Virus record (IMG/VR): IMGVR_UViG_3300048919_000420
Coordinates: 1-20,409 of that record
Origin: a virus
Strand: one strand, 5' to 3'
Length of the DNA: 20,409 nt
In this document: piece after piece, positions 4,367-18,006 of the stretch
Layout: each line of letters begins with the position of its first letter
How positions within the stretch are numbered: the first letter of the stretch is position 1
The notes under the pieces: model-generated
Seen by the model: only the letters and a program-made list of their open reading frames with translations
Databases searched by the model: none
What the model was told of the DNA's origin: nothing
Program-made: the position numbers and the translations under genes

Positions 4367-5659
4367 TCAGTTGCGCTCGCCGATGATGCGCACTGCCGTG
4401 TCGATGGCCGTGGCGCCGTGATCGGTGTAGTGCTTCTTGCCGTTGCCCTGCGACACCAGCCAGCGGATCTTGAACACGCCCATGATGGCGCCGATCAACA
4501 GCTCCAGCTTGTCGCCGTGGTCGAAGTCCTTCTCGCTCCAGAAGAAGGGCATGCCGCCGTGCTTGGACTTGCCGAAAGCCTGGGCCAGGGACTGGCCGCC
4601 CAGCAGGATCGCGCGGTCCACTGCGTGGGTGGTGCCGAACGAGGCGGGGACGACGCAGGTGCTTTCCGTCTCGGTCTCGTAGGAGGCGCAGTAGCGCACC
4701 GTGTCGCCGGCATAGAAGCGGATGGGCTTGGGCATCTTGCAGATCAAGATGCCGTTCCACAGCCCTACTTCACCCAGGAACAGGGGGTGATTGTTGGCCT
4801 TGGACGCGCGTGCCAGGGCGTTCGCTTGGAACTGGCGGAAGCCGGGGTCCTGGGCGAAGGCGTGGTATTGAGCAGGCGAGACCAGCAGAACGCGCAGCGG
4901 CGAATCCTCGGCCACCTTGTCCTCGGGGATCTTGATGGCAGGCGGCGGCAGCGGGATCGATTCCATCGTCGTGCGAATGCTGTCCACCACATCCATGCCG
5001 AGTACGTCGGTGGATGCAATGTCCAGCTCACCCGCGTTGGCGGCCACGGTCTTGATGGAATCGCCATCGGCAATGTAGTGGCGGTTGCGTGTGGGCGCCT
5101 TCACTTCATTGATGGCGAATTCCGCGAACTGCGGATGTGCCTCGGTAGGCAGGCGCCATTCGATGTTGTCGTGGAAGCCGCGCGCGCCGGCCAAGTGGGT
5201 CAGCATCAGCTGGTCCTGGTAGCCGTTCATCAGCGACAGCGCAATGGGTCGGCCGATGCGACGGAATTCAACGGGGGAATTCATATCGGTCATCGTGTCG
5301 CCAATGTCCACCGGGAAGCGGACCTGGTTCACGCGCACGCGGCCGTTGTCCAGCTCGATGCCCGTGCCCTTGCCCTCGGCCATACGGCTGCCCATGATGG
5401 GATAGGCATTGGTGGGCTGCACGAAGTGGAACTCCACCTCGGAGCCCTTGCCGCGCGTCAGGTCCACCGTGCGAACGATGGGCATGTCGGTGGAGGTCTG
5501 CTTGCTCAGAACGGCGCTGACGTGAGCCTCGCCCTGGGGGACGGTGCCCACCATGCGGTTCAGCGTCGAATTGCGCTGCATGGACTGAGCGAACAGCCCG
5601 GCAGCCTGGACGAATTGGGCATTCGGCGAGCCGGTTGCCACATTGGTTTTTCCGGACAT
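4367..5659 (-). CDS. Major capsid protein, DUF4043/N4-gp56-like family
   Basis: This 430-aa protein forms the icosahedral shell. Its N-terminal third carries the run VDLTRGKGSEVEFHF, an ...AEGKGTGIEL... loop and VNQVRFPVDIGDTMTD, followed by a helix with RPIALSLMNGYQDQLMLTHLAG. This is the layout I know from the DUF4043 / N4-gp56 capsid family (HK97-type fold). The C-terminal half has FLGEVGLWNGILI and a long strand region ending RWLVSQGNGKKHY. The start is set by an ACGGAGGACAT ribosome site before ATG 5659; the frame extends upstream to 5695 without support. It follows the scaffold gene, the usual order, and length is typical. Confidence 0.85.
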   Translation of the reverse strand: MSGKTNVATGSPNAQFVQAAGLFAQSMQRNSTLNRMVGTVPQGEAHVSAVLSKQTSTDMPIVRTVDLTRGKGSEVEFHFVQPTNAYPIMGSRMAEGKGTGIELDNGRVRVNQVRFPVDIGDTMTDMNSPVEFRRIGRPIALSLMNGYQDQLMLTHLAGARGFHDNIEWRLPTEAHPQFAEFAINEVKAPTRNRHYIADGDSIKTVAANAGELDIASTDVLGMDVVDSIRTTMESIPLPPPAIKIPEDKVAEDSPLRVLLVSPAQYHAFAQDPGFRQFQANALARASKANNHPLFLGEVGLWNGILICKMPKPIRFYAGDTVRYCASYETETESTCVVPASFGTTHAVDRAILLGGQSLAQAFGKSKHGGMPFFWSEKDFDHGDKLELLIGAIMGVFKIRWLVSQGNGKKHYTDHGATAIDTAVRIIGERN

Positions 5660-5712
5660 ATGTCCTCCGTCTTGGGGAGAGGGCTGCCTCATCACGAGGT
5701 GGCCCGGGTTTC

Positions 5713-5739
5713 AAAAAATGCTTCAGTGGCTCACGCCAC
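5713..5739 (-). terminator. Weak hairpin plus T6 after the scaffold gene
   Basis: On the transcribed strand GTGGC-GTGA-GCCAC forms a 5-bp stem closed by a GNRA-type tetraloop. It overlaps the scaffold stop codon, and TGAAGCA then T6 follows. The U run starts about 7 bases after the stem, so termination would be inefficient. It may tune the scaffold:capsid ratio or may be chance. Confidence 0.3.
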
Positions 5740-6831
5740 GCTGTTCATCAGGGCATCCAGCTTTGCCGGTGACATTCCGCTCATCACGTTGATCAGTGCA
5801 GCCGGGTTATCGGCCAGGGCCTGCACACGCTCTGCTTCGCTGGCACCGGCTGCCGCGCCCGTCAACTCGGACAGACTCACCGGCACGGCTTGCTCGGCAC
5901 CAGCCTTCGCCTTTGCCACAGCCGCGTCCACGGCGTTGGCGGGAGTTGCTGGGCTGGCGGCAGGAGCTGCGGCAGGCTTTGCGCCCTTGAAAGTGCTGAA
6001 CACTTCCACGATTTCCGCAGCAGAACCGTTCTGCAGGACATTGGCCACAGCTGCACGCGCGAAAGCAGGCTGGGCATCCACCCACTGCTTGAACTCGGCA
6101 GAGTCGGCAATTTCGTCCGCGTCGGCGTGCGCCGCGTAGATCGCGTTTTCATGCGCCTGCTGCGCGCTGAGCTGTTCGCGCTGCTGGAGCGGCTGCATGG
6201 CCTGGGCCAGTCGCGCGTCCACCAGTGCTGCAGCACGCTGGTCCACCAGCGCAGCCACGCCCTTGGCGATCCCCTCTTCCGAGAAGTCGCCGAACAGGGC
6301 CATGTCCACGCCTTGGGTGGCAGCGGCCTGGGCAATGGCCAGGTTCTTGTCGGCCGAGGTCGGCGCCGCGCCAGCTTGCTCGCGGGCCGCGGCATCCGCC
6401 TGGGCTTGAGCGAGGTTGCTTTGCTGGCTGCGGTTCAACTGCTCGATCTGCGCCTTCAAGGTGGCGTTCTCGCTCTCCAGCGAGTCGCCGCGCGCCTTGA
6501 ACTGGTCACGCTCGGTGCGGGCCTGGGCCAGCTTTTCAAAGGGGATCGTGTAGCTGCCCGACTTGCTGGCAATAGGCGCGCCGGCCGGCTCGTCATCCTG
6601 AGCCGGAGCCGCGCCTGCAGCAGATGCAGGAGCCGGGGTTGCTGCAACAGCGGGTGCGGCAGCAGGAGCGGGAGAAGGCGCTGCAGCAGTTTGCTCAGCG
6701 CCAGGGGTGGCGGTTGCGGGAATAGCAGTGCTCGCGGCGTTGCTGGCTTCGGCGGTCTGGGCCGCGTCCGCGTCCAGATCCAGTTGTCCTGCAAAGGCGG
6801 ATTCGAGCAGTTGCTCAGGTGACATCGGCAT
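5731..6831 (-). CDS. Capsid scaffolding protein
   Basis: This 366-aa protein is expected to guide capsid assembly and then leave. The N-terminus (MPMSPEQLLESAF) is followed by a long Ala/Pro/Thr-rich disordered segment to about residue 85. A charged coiled coil lies near residues 90-150 (EKLAQARTERDQFKARGDSLESENATLKAQIEQL), with further helices and a short C-terminal helix (AALINVMSGMSPAKLDALMNSVA) of the type that contacts capsid subunits. Start ATG 6831 has TGGAG seven bases upstream. The location between portal and major capsid genes, the acidic helical character and disorder are typical of scaffolds. I see no protease motif. Sequence families of scaffolds diverge widely, so context carries the call. 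Confidence 0.75.
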   Translation of the reverse strand: MPMSPEQLLESAFAGQLDLDADAAQTAEASNAASTAIPATATPGAEQTAAAPSPAPAAAPAVAATPAPASAAGAAPAQDDEPAGAPIASKSGSYTIPFEKLAQARTERDQFKARGDSLESENATLKAQIEQLNRSQQSNLAQAQADAAAREQAGAAPTSADKNLAIAQAAATQGVDMALFGDFSEEGIAKGVAALVDQRAAALVDARLAQAMQPLQQREQLSAQQAHENAIYAAHADADEIADSAEFKQWVDAQPAFARAAVANVLQNGSAAEIVEVFSTFKGAKPAAAPAASPATPANAVDAAVAKAKAGAEQAVPVSLSELTGAAAGASEAERVQALADNPAALINVMSGMSPAKLDALMNSVA

Positions 6832-14080: not shown

Positions 14081-14393
14081 GGGCGCCGCCCTCCCCTGCG
14101 CTGGCATCGAAGTCCTGCACCTCCATGCCCAGATCCAGGGCCAGCCCGTGCTCCACGCGCGCACCCTTGGAGCCGCGCCATCCCGGCAGCATGTAGACCG
14201 CATCGCAGGTGCACAGCTGCGGCAGCGCCAGACGCATGTAGCCGGCCCAGCTTCCGCATGCTGGCGCGGGGTTCTCGGCCGGGTTCTCGACGTGGTGGCC
14301 CTGCGCGCGCAGCGTGGCGGCCGCGCGGTTGAAGGCCGGGTAGTTGAACTCGGGCAGGCCTGTCATCGGGCCAGCGATGTAGATGCGCTTCAT
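14073..14393 (-). CDS. DUF4406 protein, nucleoside 2-deoxyribosyltransferase-like
   Basis: This 106-aa protein begins KRIYIAGPMTGLPEFNYPAF, the hallmark of DUF4406, a small Rossmann-like group related to nucleoside 2-deoxyribosyltransferases. The segment RGSKGARVEHGLALDLGMEV holds the conserved Glu that acts as nucleophile in the enzyme relatives, and CDAVYMLPGW lies before it. It may act on nucleosides or nucleotides, perhaps in DNA modification or nucleotide salvage; activity of DUF4406 itself is not established to my knowledge. Start ATG 14393 (GGAGGG upstream) overlaps the RuvC-like stop. It is an early gene, in line with nucleotide metabolism during replication. Confidence 0.8.
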   Translation of the reverse strand: MKRIYIAGPMTGLPEFNYPAFNRAAATLRAQGHHVENPAENPAPACGSWAGYMRLALPQLCTCDAVYMLPGWRGSKGARVEHGLALDLGMEVQDFDASAGEGGAHA

Positions 14394-14857
14394 GGCCGGG
14401 CCCTCCGGAAGGACCACGCGATCATTGCGGCGTCACGCTGGTGCTGATTGCTGCGGCCAGCCCAGCCGGTCAGGCGGCTGAATGTGGCGGCATCGATCTT
14501 TGCGCCGTGGGCACTGCCGGCCTTGGCGCTGGGTGCCAGGCCGAAGCAGGCAATGCCGAGGCTGGCGCACAGGGTCTCGATGAGCACGCACCATGCATCG
14601 ATCTCGCCCACGTTGCGCGCCATCTTGGCCCGAGCTGCAGCGCTGCCCTGGCCGGTCCAGGTCCTGCGCGCCTTGCGGCTGTCCTCGAAGATCACCAGCG
14701 TGGGCGCCCTGCCCTGCAGCGTCTGCAGGATCTGCGCTGGAGCAATCTCCTCCAGCGCCTGCAGCTGGCCATCCACGATCCAGGCCAGCCCGGTGTGCTT
14801 GCCCGGGTCCATGCCCAGAACCGTGATCGGGCCCTGGTGGCCAGCAGGCACCGTCAC
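14390..14857 (-). CDS. RuvC-like (RNase H-fold) Holliday junction nuclease
   Basis: This 155-aa protein shows the RuvC/RNase H-fold acidic residues in order: Asp17 in VLGMDPGKHTGLAW, Glu58 in LVIFEDS, and His139/Asp142 in NQHQRDAAMIAW. Length is close to RuvC. It would resolve branched DNA made during phage recombination and before packaging. I place the start at GTG 14857, which overlaps the stop of the 75-aa gene as GTGA. No ribosome site is visible, so translation must be coupled. The frame stays open to 15055, but that part would be Gly/Ala/Arg-rich overprint of the neighbour. It lies beside DUF4406 and HNH-like genes. Confidence 0.75.
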   Translation of the reverse strand: MTVPAGHQGPITVLGMDPGKHTGLAWIVDGQLQALEEIAPAQILQTLQGRAPTLVIFEDSRKARRTWTGQGSAAARAKMARNVGEIDAWCVLIETLCASLGIACFGLAPSAKAGSAHGAKIDAATFSRLTGWAGRSNQHQRDAAMIAWSFRRARP

Positions 14858-15081
14858 GCGCGGGGCGGCGGGCGCCAGGCGAGCGCCTGCAGCTGCTGCA
14901 CCACCTGCCGCTCGATGTCCACGAACAGGCGGGACTCGTCCCTGTCCAGCTCCCTGGCCCTGGCCTTGACGTACTCCCACCACCCGGGTTGCTGGGCCAG
15001 CTTGACGAGGTGCGCCACGGCTGCCGCGCTGAGATTGTTTGGTTGTTGCTGCCATTGGTGTTCAGACGACAATGAATTCAT
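14854..15081 (-). CDS. Small helical phage protein, unknown function
   Basis: This 75-aa product is read from ATG 15081 (MNSLSSEHQWQQQ). It has a helical core, SAAAVAHLVKLAQQPGWWEYV then KARARELDRDESRLFVDIERQVVQQLQ, with an aromatic WWEYV patch. The start overlaps the previous gene by 20 bases and no strong ribosome site is seen; its stop overlaps the RuvC-like start. I do not recognise a family. An accessory protein to the nuclease downstream is possible from coupling alone. Confidence 0.6.
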   Translation of the reverse strand: MNSLSSEHQWQQQPNNLSAAAVAHLVKLAQQPGWWEYVKARARELDRDESRLFVDIERQVVQQLQALAWRPPPRA

Positions 15082-15568
15082 GGGTATCGCTGCCGTGGCT
15101 GTTGACCAGCAGCTCGCGCAGACGGCGTTCGGTGGCGCGGTGCGCACGGATGAAGGTGCGGGCCGGGATCACCTCCAGTACTTGGCCGTAGGCCTCGCCG
15201 AACTCGACCAGGTGGCCCAGCTGCACGGCGTTCAGGCGCATCTCCTGGCCATGGCCGTGCTTGCGGCCCAGGTCCACGACGGCCGCCACGGCATCAGCAA
15301 ACAGGCTCTGGGCCTCGGGCTCGGTGAAGACGCCCATGCCCAGCAGCGTTTCGGACAGGTTCGCGGCGTCGGCCAGGTCGCGCCAGTGCTGCACTGTGGG
15401 AGCGGCGTAGCCCACGGCATGCACAGCGCCCTGGACTGCTGCAGCCAGGGGCTCGCGCTTGCGCTGGTGCAGCGGTTGCCGCTCGCTGGCCGACAGCTCC
15501 TGTGCCAGCGTGTAGGTGTAGGGCAGCGTCAGGTAGTCGCGGCTCACGGAGGAATGGATAGCGCTCAT
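15062..15568 (-). CDS. Early-operon protein, unknown function
   Basis: This 168-aa protein starts at ATG 15568 with GGGGAG upstream, overlapping the preceding stop as ATGA. It is mainly helical: an N-terminal part with YLTLPYTYTLAQELSASERQ, a middle part with TVQHWRDLADAANLSETLLGMG, and a basic end with TFIRAHRATERRLRELLVNSHG. The central part could contact partners or RNA/DNA, but I see no catalytic motif. I do not recognise a family. It follows the replication genes. The open frame to 16060 is an overprint of the upstream gene. Confidence 0.6.
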   Translation of the reverse strand: MSAIHSSVSRDYLTLPYTYTLAQELSASERQPLHQRKREPLAAAVQGAVHAVGYAAPTVQHWRDLADAANLSETLLGMGVFTEPEAQSLFADAVAAVVDLGRKHGHGQEMRLNAVQLGHLVEFGEAYGQVLEVIPARTFIRAHRATERRLRELLVNSHGSDTHEFIVV

Positions 15569-16347
15569 GGCTGGCTCCCCTGCTGGTGCTGCGCCACAGC
15601 GGCGGCAGTGCGGCGCTTGGCCTGGCCGAGGCGCATCCGGTCTGCACGGGCCTGGACTTGCACGGGCGTGAAGCGCGAGGCCTTGACCGCGAAGGCTTCG
15701 CGCAGGGTGGCCAGCTGGGCCAGCACTTCGCGCTTCGGACCGGTGGGCACCGAGTCCGGAGCCGGCAGCGCCAGGGCGGCGCGCGGGGCCGGCAACTGCA
15801 GCTGCTCGCGCAGGTCGTCGGTCAGGCCCCCCAGCCCGCCCGGCAGTCGGCCTGCCGTGATGGCTTCCTGCACGGCGCGCGTCCGGGCTTCGGGGTCGTG
15901 GCCCAGGCTGACCTGCACCACAGGACGGCGGCGCAGCGCACGGGCCTCGCCAGTGATCCGGCCGTAGGCCTCGATGAAGGCCTGCCGTGCCCCGAACTTG
16001 TCGCCGGCATTGAGCAGCGGCGCGGCCACGGCCCATGCCTGGGCGATCTCGTCGGTCCACACCACGGTGGCCTGCTGGTCAGCGCTGGTCAGCGCCAGGC
16101 CATAGGCTTCGGCGGGCAGCATGCGACCCATCGCGTGGTCCACGTACTGCAGCACAGTGCCAGTCAAGATCGGGCCGCGATGCTCGGCACGGATGCGGGC
16201 CAGGGCCAGGCGCAGCACAGGCTTTTCGATGTGGGCCAGGTCTTCCGCCAGCAGCAGCAGTGCAGCAGGCCGGACCTGCTGGCCGCTCAGCTCCATCGTG
16301 GCGCCCAGCTCTTCCAGCAGCCAGTCGGTGTCGTGGTCGTCACGCAT
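15565..16347 (-). CDS. Probable replication accessory protein (helicase-loader position)
   Basis: This 260-aa protein follows the O-like initiator, where lambda has the helicase loader P. The N-terminus is a helical domain with LLLAEDLAHIEKPVLRLALA and ILTGTVLQYVDHAMG, resembling the small helical domain of phage replicative helicase loader/inhibitor-type proteins. The middle (TVVWTDEIAQAWAVAAPLL, NAGDKFGARQAFIEAYGRI) is a pattern I associate with proteins next to phage initiators, and SLGHDPEARTRAVQEAI follows. There is no Walker ATPase motif, so it is not a DnaC-type AAA+ loader. Start ATG 16347 has GGGGAGGG upstream and overlaps the initiator stop. Loader function is inference. Confidence 0.6.
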   Translation of the reverse strand: MRDDHDTDWLLEELGATMELSGQQVRPAALLLLAEDLAHIEKPVLRLALARIRAEHRGPILTGTVLQYVDHAMGRMLPAEAYGLALTSADQQATVVWTDEIAQAWAVAAPLLNAGDKFGARQAFIEAYGRITGEARALRRRPVVQVSLGHDPEARTRAVQEAITAGRLPGGLGGLTDDLREQLQLPAPRAALALPAPDSVPTGPKREVLAQLATLREAFAVKASRFTPVQVQARADRMRLGQAKRRTAAAVAQHQQGSQP

Positions 16348-17296
16348 TGCCGCCCTCCCCGTTGCCCCGGCCGCCGCGCTGGCGCAGCAGCCGCTTAGCC
16401 TCCTCGATGGCGTCGAAGTTGGCGCTCGTCTTGTCGGCCGCCTGCGCTGCCGTGCCGGTCACGGCCTGGCCACGAGCCCACTGGGTGCGGAAGCTCTCGG
16501 CCTGGTTCACCAGCACGCCGACGCCGTGGGAGTTCTTCACCACGAATGCCTCGTTCACGCTGGCCACGTACCAAGCCGCCACCAGCGGTGCCTCTTCGAA
16601 GCCCAGGCGCTTGACCAGCGTCTTCACGTTGGCGTTCACGACCTGGTTGCGCACCGGCTTGACGCCATACCGCTGCTCGTAGGCCAGGCTGTACGACGCC
16701 CAGGTGAGCTTGCAGGCAGCCTGCAGGGCTGTCTCGCCGTCGTCTGGATCACCGCCAGCCCCATCGCGGGCCGACGGCGCAGCCGGCGGGGATGGTTCTT
16801 TGGCGGTTCCTTTACGGTTCCTATTACGGTTCAATGATGATTTGGGTGCGCCATCTGCACCCCTGGGGTGCGCCATCTGCGGGGGTTGAGGTGCGCCATT
16901 TGCACCCCCTGGTGCGCCAGCTGCGGGGGGTGGTGCGCCGTCTGCACCCGGTGCGCCATTTGCGGGGGGTGCGCCATTTGCACCCGGTGCGGCATCTGCA
17001 CCCGTACCACGCCTGCGCTTCGCAGGCGCTGCAGCCGGGTTGAAGTTGGCCGGAGTGATGGTGTAGCTGGTGCTCGAGTTGATGCGGTACTCACGGAACA
17101 CCACGCCAACAGTCTGCAGCCAGGCGATGGCATCCTGCACCGCGCGCTCGGACAGGCAGGTGCGCTTCGCAATCGTCGCAACACCGGGCCAGCACACGCC
17201 GTCATCGTTGGCCTGGTCAGCCAGGGAAATCAGCACAGCCTTCTGCGCGGGGGACATCGCCAGCGGCCAGCAGGCCGCCATGATCATCGTGCTCAT
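16340..17296 (-). CDS. Lambda-O-like replication initiator with repeat-encoded linker
   Basis: This 318-aa protein is expected to bind the phage origin and recruit the replisome. Residues about 10-80 form a HTH_36-type winged helix (AMSPAQKAVLISLADQAND, CWPGVATIAKRTCLSERAVQ, DAIAWLQTVGVVFREYR). A Gly/Ala/Pro linker (about residues 90-150) is made of GADGAP/GANGAP units. It is encoded by the 18-bp repeat array described separately, just as lambda's origin repeats lie in the middle of O. The C-terminal part (KLTWASYSLAYEQRYGVKP, FEEAPLVAAWYVASVNEAFV) is a helical domain probably for partner contact. Start ATG 17296 has AGGAGGG upstream and overlaps the Rha gene stop. Confidence 0.8.
   Translation of the reverse strand: MSTMIMAACWPLAMSPAQKAVLISLADQANDDGVCWPGVATIAKRTCLSERAVQDAIAWLQTVGVVFREYRINSSTSYTITPANFNPAAAPAKRRRGTGADAAPGANGAPPANGAPGADGAPPPAAGAPGGANGAPQPPQMAHPRGADGAPKSSLNRNRNRKGTAKEPSPPAAPSARDGAGGDPDDGETALQAACKLTWASYSLAYEQRYGVKPVRNQVVNANVKTLVKRLGFEEAPLVAAWYVASVNEAFVVKNSHGVGVLVNQAESFRTQWARGQAVTGTAAQAADKTSANFDAIEEAKRLLRQRGGRGNGEGGNA
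16804..16832. repeat. Three short AT-richer direct repeats beside the iterons
   Basis: CGGTTC recurs at 16804, 16815 and 16827, each followed by an AT-rich tail (CTTTA, CTATTA, AATGATGATTT). The 11-12 bp spacing resembles unwinding-element repeats of replication origins. They encode the NRNRNRK segment of the initiator, on the gene-3' side of the iterons, the same side as the AT-rich part of lambda ori. Confidence 0.5.
16845..17003. repeat. Eight 18-bp iterons, candidate origin of replication
   Basis: Consensus GGTGCGCCATCTGCACCC. Copies start at 16845, 16867, 16890, 16911, 16932, 16950, 16968 and 16986. Copies 2, 4 and 6 end in CGGGG, the others in CACCC; the latter are dyads with GGTGC/GCACC arms. 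Spacings are 22, 23, 21, 21, 18, 18 and 18. Copy 2 is read in a different frame (PQMAH instead of GADGAP) yet keeps the DNA sequence, so selection seems to act on DNA. Position in the initiator gene matches lambdoid origins. Confidence 0.75.
17011..17027. repeat. 7-bp perfect inverted repeat at the edge of the iteron array
   Basis: GCCTGCG-CTT-CGCAGGC lies 7 bases beyond the last iteron. It encodes the basic AKRRRG segment of the initiator, so codon constraint alone could produce part of it, but the perfect pairing next to the repeats suggests an origin element or a hairpin that could form when DNA is unwound. Confidence 0.4.
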
Positions 17297-18006
17297 TGCT
17301 GTGCGCCCTCCTGCGCCAGGCGGGCCTGGTGCTGGCCCCACAGGCCGGCAATCCAGGTCACGCCCTTGCTGGTGAACTTGGCCTGGGTGAAAGCGTGGTC
17401 GCTGTGCTGGGCATGGCCTGCCTTCACCACGAATCGGCCTGCGTCCAAGTGCTGGGCCAGCGGAGTCAGCCGGCCCCCCAGGTGGTACATCACCTTGTTG
17501 TCCAGAAGGAACGCGCGAAAGCGCTCCTCGTTCGCGCGCAGCAGCTTGCAGACCTGGCGGAAGCCCATGGCGCCGGTCTCGGCCGCCACGAAGCGATCCA
17601 CGAACTCCGCTTTGGGCGCAGCCAGGGCCAGCGCCTCGGCCGTGCGCAGCTCGGATTCCTTGGCATCGGCCCAGGCGCGCGCGGCGGCCACCGGGTTGGA
17701 GAAATCAGGCAGCGCGGGAGCGGCCTGGGCCTCCAGTTCCTGCCAGCGATCCACCAGGCGCGCAGTGAACTCAGGAGACAGCTGCGCCACCACGACATAG
17801 CTGTCACGTTTGCACAGTTGGTAGACGCTCACGGTTTGGCCGAGGTGGTTCCGAACTTCCTGCAACGCAGGGAGTTGGATCACGCCGCGCGCGCCCAGGC
17901 GCTCGATGGAGGTCTTCACGTTGTCGTGACGAGACTCCACCAAGGTGGCGATTTCTTCGCTGCTCATGGTCAGCACGGCGGCGGAAATTGCAGTGATCGC
18001 GTTCAT
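17293..18006 (-). CDS. Rha-family regulator with C-terminal KilAC antirepressor domain
   Basis: This 237-aa protein joins two known phage domains. Residues about 14-95 are Rha-like (MSSEEIATLVESRHDNVKTS, SVYQLCKRDSYVVVAQLSPE, FTARLVDRWQELE). From about 130 the KilAC/ANT domain follows (KAEFVDRFVAAETGAMGFRQ, VCKLLRANEERFRAFLL, FTSKGVTWIAGLW). Such proteins bind DNA or repressors and act in lytic switching or in countering the resident repressor. Start ATG 18006 has GGAGGG upstream and overlaps the preceding stop (ATGA). Its own target here is not known. It lies in the early operon under PR, so it would be made after derepression. Confidence 0.82.
   Translation of the reverse strand: MNAITAISAAVLTMSSEEIATLVESRHDNVKTSIERLGARGVIQLPALQEVRNHLGQTVSVYQLCKRDSYVVVAQLSPEFTARLVDRWQELEAQAAPALPDFSNPVAAARAWADAKESELRTAEALALAAPKAEFVDRFVAAETGAMGFRQVCKLLRANEERFRAFLLDNKVMYHLGGRLTPLAQHLDAGRFVVKAGHAQHSDHAFTQAKFTSKGVTWIAGLWGQHQARLAQEGAQQ

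Follow-up and report, generated by a model that had tools for sequence, protein, structure and literature searches.

The viral record, 20.4 kb in size, was analysed at its full length of 20,409 nucleotides (the window). Its genes include a terminase, a Rha/KilAC-type antirepressor and a Cro/CI-like gene, and it is closely related to Delftia and Comamonas prophages. Among its genes is one for an O-like replication initiator (Table 1), whose start codon is likely the ATG at 17296 and not the listed GTG at 17341. The initiator consists of an N-terminal winged helix-turn-helix (HTH_36), a disordered linker, and a helical C-terminal domain. In Pfam, the N-terminus matched HTH_36 (PF13730) with an E-value of 1.3e-10 and 41 bits against a cut-off of 25, and in PHROG, residues 16 to 317 of the longer listed ORF matched phrog_391, 'replication initiation O-like', with an E-value of 8.6e-41; the profile match covers both the N- and C-terminal parts and makes this an initiator of the HTH_36/PHROG 391 type. 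The lambda O family (Pfam Phage_rep_O) was not matched, and HTH_36 was the sole Pfam match up to an E-value of 0.1. In the AlphaFold2 model, the HTH helices span residues 16 to 27, 39 to 46, and 50 to 63 and the wing strands residues 66 to 69 and 77 to 80, while residues 94 to 185 are unstructured with pLDDT below 50; it is because of this linker that the overall confidence of the model is low. A PDB sequence search with the initiator gave weak winged-helix regulators only, and Foldseek with the model gave generic winged helices only, at an E-value of about 0.1.

The gene in the lambda P position had no Pfam match, and the AlphaFold2 model of its product (pLDDT 81) had no PDB fold match; that it encodes a new helicase loader would be a guess. 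Beside initiators of one iteron class of relatives (class E, see below), the first 165 residues of this product show a conservation of about 40% identity. Downstream on the same strand, the gene at 14390 to 15055 weakly matches the Holliday junction resolvases of phages (phrog_1770).

Table 1. Features of the initiator locus, in window coordinates.
Feature	Position	Strand	Remarks
O-like replication initiator gene	16340..17296	-	318 aa from ATG 17296
Gene in lambda P position	15565..16347	-	phrog_6028, E 1.2e-54, no function label; helical
Gln54 codon CAG	17135..17137	-	recognition helix (SERAVQ), helix 50-63 in model
Iteron copy 1	16845..16862	-	full dyad GGTGC-N7-GCACC; GADGAP frame; adjoins AT-rich region
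Iteron copy 2	16867..16884	-	displaced frame (PQMAHP); CCCCGC half-site variant
Iteron copy 3	16890..16907	-	full dyad
Iteron copy 4	16911..16928	-	half-site variant
Iteron copy 5	16932..16949	-	full dyad
Iteron copy 6	16950..16967	-	half-site variant
Iteron copy 7	16968..16985	-	full dyad
Iteron copy 8	16986..17003	-	full dyad; varying middle base
Junction	16835..16846	-	CCCAAATCATCA; links last iteron to AT-rich repeats; K-S-S in window
AT-rich-region repeat 1	16824..16832	-	GAACCGTAA
AT-rich-region repeat 2	16812..16820	-	GAACCGTAA; 12 bp on
AT-rich-region repeat 3	16801..16809	-	GAACCGCCA; 11 bp on, other frame
AT-rich-region repeat 4	16790..16798	-	GAACCATCC; 11 bp on, third frame

The eight 18-bp repeats lie at 16845 to 17003, between the two domains of the initiator, in the linker that is disordered in the model. 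Their start-to-start spacings, from copy 1 to copy 8, are 22, 23, 21, 21, 18, 18, and 18 bp. Both the coordinates and the spacings are those given in the preliminary description, and its claim that copy 2 is out of frame was likewise borne out: one codon frame is common to seven of the eight copies, and copy 2, set off by the spacings of 22 and 23, is read differently. The full dyad is present in five copies, and three have CCCCGC where the others have GGGTGC; in all of them the opposite half-site stays GCGCACC or a near variant. The 'two classes of sub-site' proposed earlier are thus tenable as two versions of one half-site, and not in any other sense.

The dyad occurs five times in the 20.4-kb record, each time within the array, while 0.14 occurrences are expected from dinucleotide shuffles and no shuffle reached five. 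None of 20,000 synonymous draws (same protein, window codon usage) equalled the mutual similarity of the copies, and alanine in the array is encoded by GCA in 14 of 17 codons, compared with 80 of 539 across nine other genes of the window. In a single genome the displaced copy proves little, because the peptide PQMAHP already fixes most of its letters; given the peptide, 1,044 of 20,000 shuffles reached this copy in this genome, which is not significant. The proof that this copy is conserved at the DNA level is supplied by the relatives. A search of a plasmid collection for similar DNA found none.

The relatives comprised 102 distinct genes from 127 loci, which fell into five iteron classes (A to E) with 4 to 10 copies per array; for class E, a simple consensus undercounts the copies. 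Class A, the type of the window (24 distinct genes), uses two frames, and a displaced copy with its core kept is present in all 24. In class B, the Comamonas type (16 genes), GGCGCACC is replaced by GCCGCCCC in every copy, also in the displaced one. Both half-sites are changed (GGGGC-N7-GCCCC in class B versus GGTGC-N7-GCACC in class A), and the displaced copy reads EGQMPPP instead of PQMAHP. In the Pseudomonas-type classes C and D, one DNA consensus is practically identical in all three frames and is read as, for example, PPQEMHP, TPADAAP, and PRSKCTP. The alignment of relatives, which had been proposed as a check, shows that the 18-mer core persists as the encoded peptide varies, over two frames in classes A and B and over three in C and D. 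The refuting case would have been a synonymous loss of the DNA repeats with the peptide kept; none of about 100 distinct genes showed it.

The junction CCCAAATCATCA was found in 24 of 24 class A and 16 of 16 class B genes (CCCAAATCGTAA being allowed in three of class B). K-S-S is its reading in 22 class A genes; in the other two and in nearly all of class B it is read N-H-Q, and one extra base restores the frame. One class B locus (L039:5046-5500) has its array collapsed to one iteron, apparently by the joining of an in-frame and an out-of-frame copy; its initiator is frameshifted and ends early, and the collapse is either a deletion that arose in nature or an artefact of assembly. Two other loci (L036 and L037, about 5040-6233) have some 90 extra residues between the HTH and the array that look GIY-YIG-like by eye; Pfam confirmed no domain in this insert, and beyond it the array has a decayed appearance.

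On the 3' side of the last iteron, four GAACC(G/A)-type repeats 11 to 12 bp apart (16790-16832) follow directly. The GC content of the region is lowest here, with 0.52 to 0.53 in 60-bp steps over 16780 to 16869 versus 0.58 to 0.77 elsewhere in 16300 to 17379. The repeats spell NR, TV/TI, and EPS in the three frames. GAACC-type repeats stand beside the array in all five iteron classes, and the order of iterons and AT-rich region is fixed. In 96 genes, the mean number of 11- to 12-bp phased steps was 2.53 versus 0.17 in synonymous draws, in a test that placed the region by its first pair and so had one step built in for nearly every gene; for the window alone, three phased steps were reached by 20 of 20,000 shuffles. 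The initiators of phages Parlo and Pavtok (L051 and L052) have a similar C-terminal and a different N-terminal domain; their genes contain other repeats (GGGTCGGTTCA-like) and, at about 13 bp, AACCAGTAA motifs related to GAACC.

As an independent check, a scan of the viral collection with the DNA triple AACCNTMA alone gave at least 120 matches, of which 32 were recognised by their periodicity as 6-mer microsatellites and excluded; L140, L143, L162, and other viral contigs carry long 6-bp microsatellites of the AACCGT/ACCGGA type in which no link to an origin was seen. Among the remaining matches listed, a direct-repeat array lay upstream in 71 of the 82 with full upstream sequence, compared with 4% of random positions, and the iterons preceding the triple were often unrelated to classes A to E. 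Long ORFs holding the triple matched a phage replication-initiation PHROG in 62 of 67 cases and HTH_36 in 58 of 67, again among the matches listed. The triple was also found in an ORF that carries a DnaB helicase (L194:475-2163, minus strand) and in one that carries an IstB/DnaC-like ATPase (L199:4121-5395, plus strand). This suggests fusions around the GAACC element and fits a role at helicase loading.

Which domain of the initiator goes with the iterons can be judged from the same relatives. Nearest neighbours by N-terminal domain had the same iteron class in 97 of 102 cases, a count in which some class members are near-copies (81 with identities of at least 90% barred, 50 at 85%). The C-terminal domains of the window initiator and L041 are 88% identical, yet their iterons belong to classes A and B, respectively, and those of L053 and L078 are 90% identical, yet go with classes C and D. 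By this comparison, it is the N-terminal and not the C-terminal domain that the iteron type follows. The single N-terminal column that separates classes A and B throughout is residue 54, a glutamine or an arginine in the recognition helix. For the last iteron of 191 distinct genes from several collections, we counted 112 cases of Gln with the A-type base and 67 of Arg with the C- or G-type base, with no contrary call and nine undecided. Over all iteron copies, the base was A in 554 of the 567 that go with Gln54, and G or C in 228 of the 242 that go with Arg54. The nearest-neighbour mismatches L032, L040, L053, and L054 fit this rule. In four Gln54 arrays (L087, L112, L122, and L128) the final copy carries TGCCG, and in class E, whose iteron register is harder to place, A and G come out even in six arrays. 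On an N-terminal tree of 55 columns, with the residue 54 column left out, the Gln/Arg state needs five changes; well-supported branches force only one of them, too few for a sign test on the Gln/Arg label to reach significance. The independent pairs that can be drawn on the tree agree with the rule. Gln-A and Arg-G contacts are chemically standard. Since the letters of the array are kept in any frame and co-vary with one residue, DNA recognition, and not the linker peptide, would have shaped it.

These comparisons argue that the array and the adjoining AT-rich stretch are a phage replication origin of the lambda type inside its own, HTH_36-type initiator gene, a reading to which we assign a probability of about 0.88. 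The preliminary description had proposed such an origin without the dyad symmetry, the AT-rich repeat family, or the co-variation with the recognition helix; the reading frames, the N-terminal specificity, the co-variation with residue 54, and the GAACC repeats now lend it good support. We infer initiator binding, melting, helicase loading, and use as the origin. Initiator dimers would contact the iterons with their N-terminal winged helices, residue 54 reading base X in a general half-site (T/C)GC-X-CC, and the initiator-bound array would melt the adjoining AT-rich region, in which the phased GAACC(G/A) repeats would be elements of unwinding and loading. The C-terminal domain and a partner may then recruit the helicase. 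The GAACC single strand is most likely bound by the initiator or the helicase-loading machinery, for which the plasmid proteins TrfA and RepE, which bind one strand of the repeats of their unwinding regions, would be the best model; TrfA depends on every 13-mer (PMC4081077).

All that the comparisons say in favour of binding by the N-terminal domain would fit equally well if the repeats were operators through which the initiator represses or regulates its own gene, with replication starting elsewhere. We consider this improbable, as operators in mid-gene would be oddly placed and would leave unexplained both the lambda-like layout and the AT-rich region whose phased repeats are fixed beside the array in five iteron classes. 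More improbable still is a repeat without a DNA-binding role, arising as a repeated linker peptide or by neutral slippage or gene conversion, even though seven copies of the window encode a similar peptide, copy number varies, and the L039 array has collapsed. The similarity of the copies lies beyond all 20,000 synonymous shuffles, and neutral homogenisation predicts neither one DNA sequence serving in two or three frames nor a base X that changes together with residue 54, which belongs to a separate domain; on these grounds, peptide-only selection and neutral repeat drift were rejected.

If the origin reading holds, the GAACC repeats could nevertheless be something other than a recognition element of the initiator, either read as duplex by a host factor or merely helically phased DNA that melts easily. 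Because the consensus stays constant while iterons and C-terminal domains change, a host partner common to these phages is conceivable; Parlo and Pavtok, which have another N-terminal domain, carry the related motif. However, the sequence and the 11- to 12-bp spacing are conserved beyond AT content, with the GAACC core kept, and plasmid initiators need exact unwinding-region repeats (PMC4081077). We regard this explanation as possible rather than probable.

We hypothesize, with about an even chance of being right, that the HTH_36 phage initiators share one modular origin code, in which residue 54 reads the variable iterons, a constant GAACC(G/A)TMA element recurs every 11 to 12 bp, and DNA kept in all frames dictates the linker peptide. 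The constancy of the GAACC element while iterons and helicase-recruiting domains are exchanged would imply a recogniser common to these phages, and the conservation of the DNA in all three codon frames would imply that the origin dictates the linker peptide. The shared unwinding-region motif and the Gln/Arg rule appear to be undescribed: neither was found in the literature searched, which covered a minority of subscription journals, and this is no proof of novelty. Within the same scope, no description of phage HTH_36 origins was found, and for the letters of the GAACC motif the papers listed were all unrelated. With the motif, replication origins can be located by sequence within many phage genes that are still uncharacterised, and residue 54 matches initiators to iterons by a rule at the level of one residue. 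A motif common to the iteron classes also gives experiments direct access to the way in which a melted origin is recognised once the iterons are bound.

The parallel with lambda drawn in the preliminary description is right and close. At 39034, 39054, 39078, and 39101 within O, the annotated lambda iterons have spacings of 20, 24, and 23 bp and use all three codon frames, so that a frame change is expected here and not surprising. As in the lambda origin, the initiator gene holds dyad-symmetric iterons of about 18 bp (spaced 20 to 24 bp in lambda) between its N- and C-terminal parts, these iterons occupy more than one codon frame, and an AT-rich flank follows 3' of them inside the gene (PMC7466680, PMC6022878). 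In lambda, initiator dimers on the iterons, two initiators per iteron (PMC6022878), lead to melting of the AT-rich region and helicase loading (PMC7466680, PMC6022878). In the lambdoid origins of Shiga-toxin phages, extra iterons within O lengthen the linker and the AT-rich tract is required for unwinding; these origins keep the lambda iteron family, from which the present array differs, and the accessible part of the source contains no frame or recognition-helix analysis of them (PMC7466680). Unlike lambda, the present origin has an HTH_36 initiator that does not match the lambda-type O family of Pfam, eight iterons unrelated in sequence, GAACC repeats in the AT-rich flank that lambda lacks, and a following gene that is not recognisably P. 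Given lambda, frame-displaced iterons are not new; the present origin varies the lambda-type intragenic arrangement by using another initiator family.

In RK2 oriV and F oriS, the origin lies outside the initiator gene, whereas the present array lies within the ORF. These plasmid origins resemble it in that the iterons adjoin an unwinding region with short repeats of its own and the initiator is a winged-helix protein; they differ in that the plasmid initiators have two winged-helix domains and the RK2 repeat consensus, TAAACnTTnTTTT, is not that of GAACC (PMC4081077). Also close are the PHROG 391, 345, and 270 initiators of LESphi3, PotUPM1, CUB19, Itty13, and PseuP_224, which share the N-terminal family, the intragenic iterons, and the GAACC repeats and differ in having class C iterons and varied C-terminal domains.
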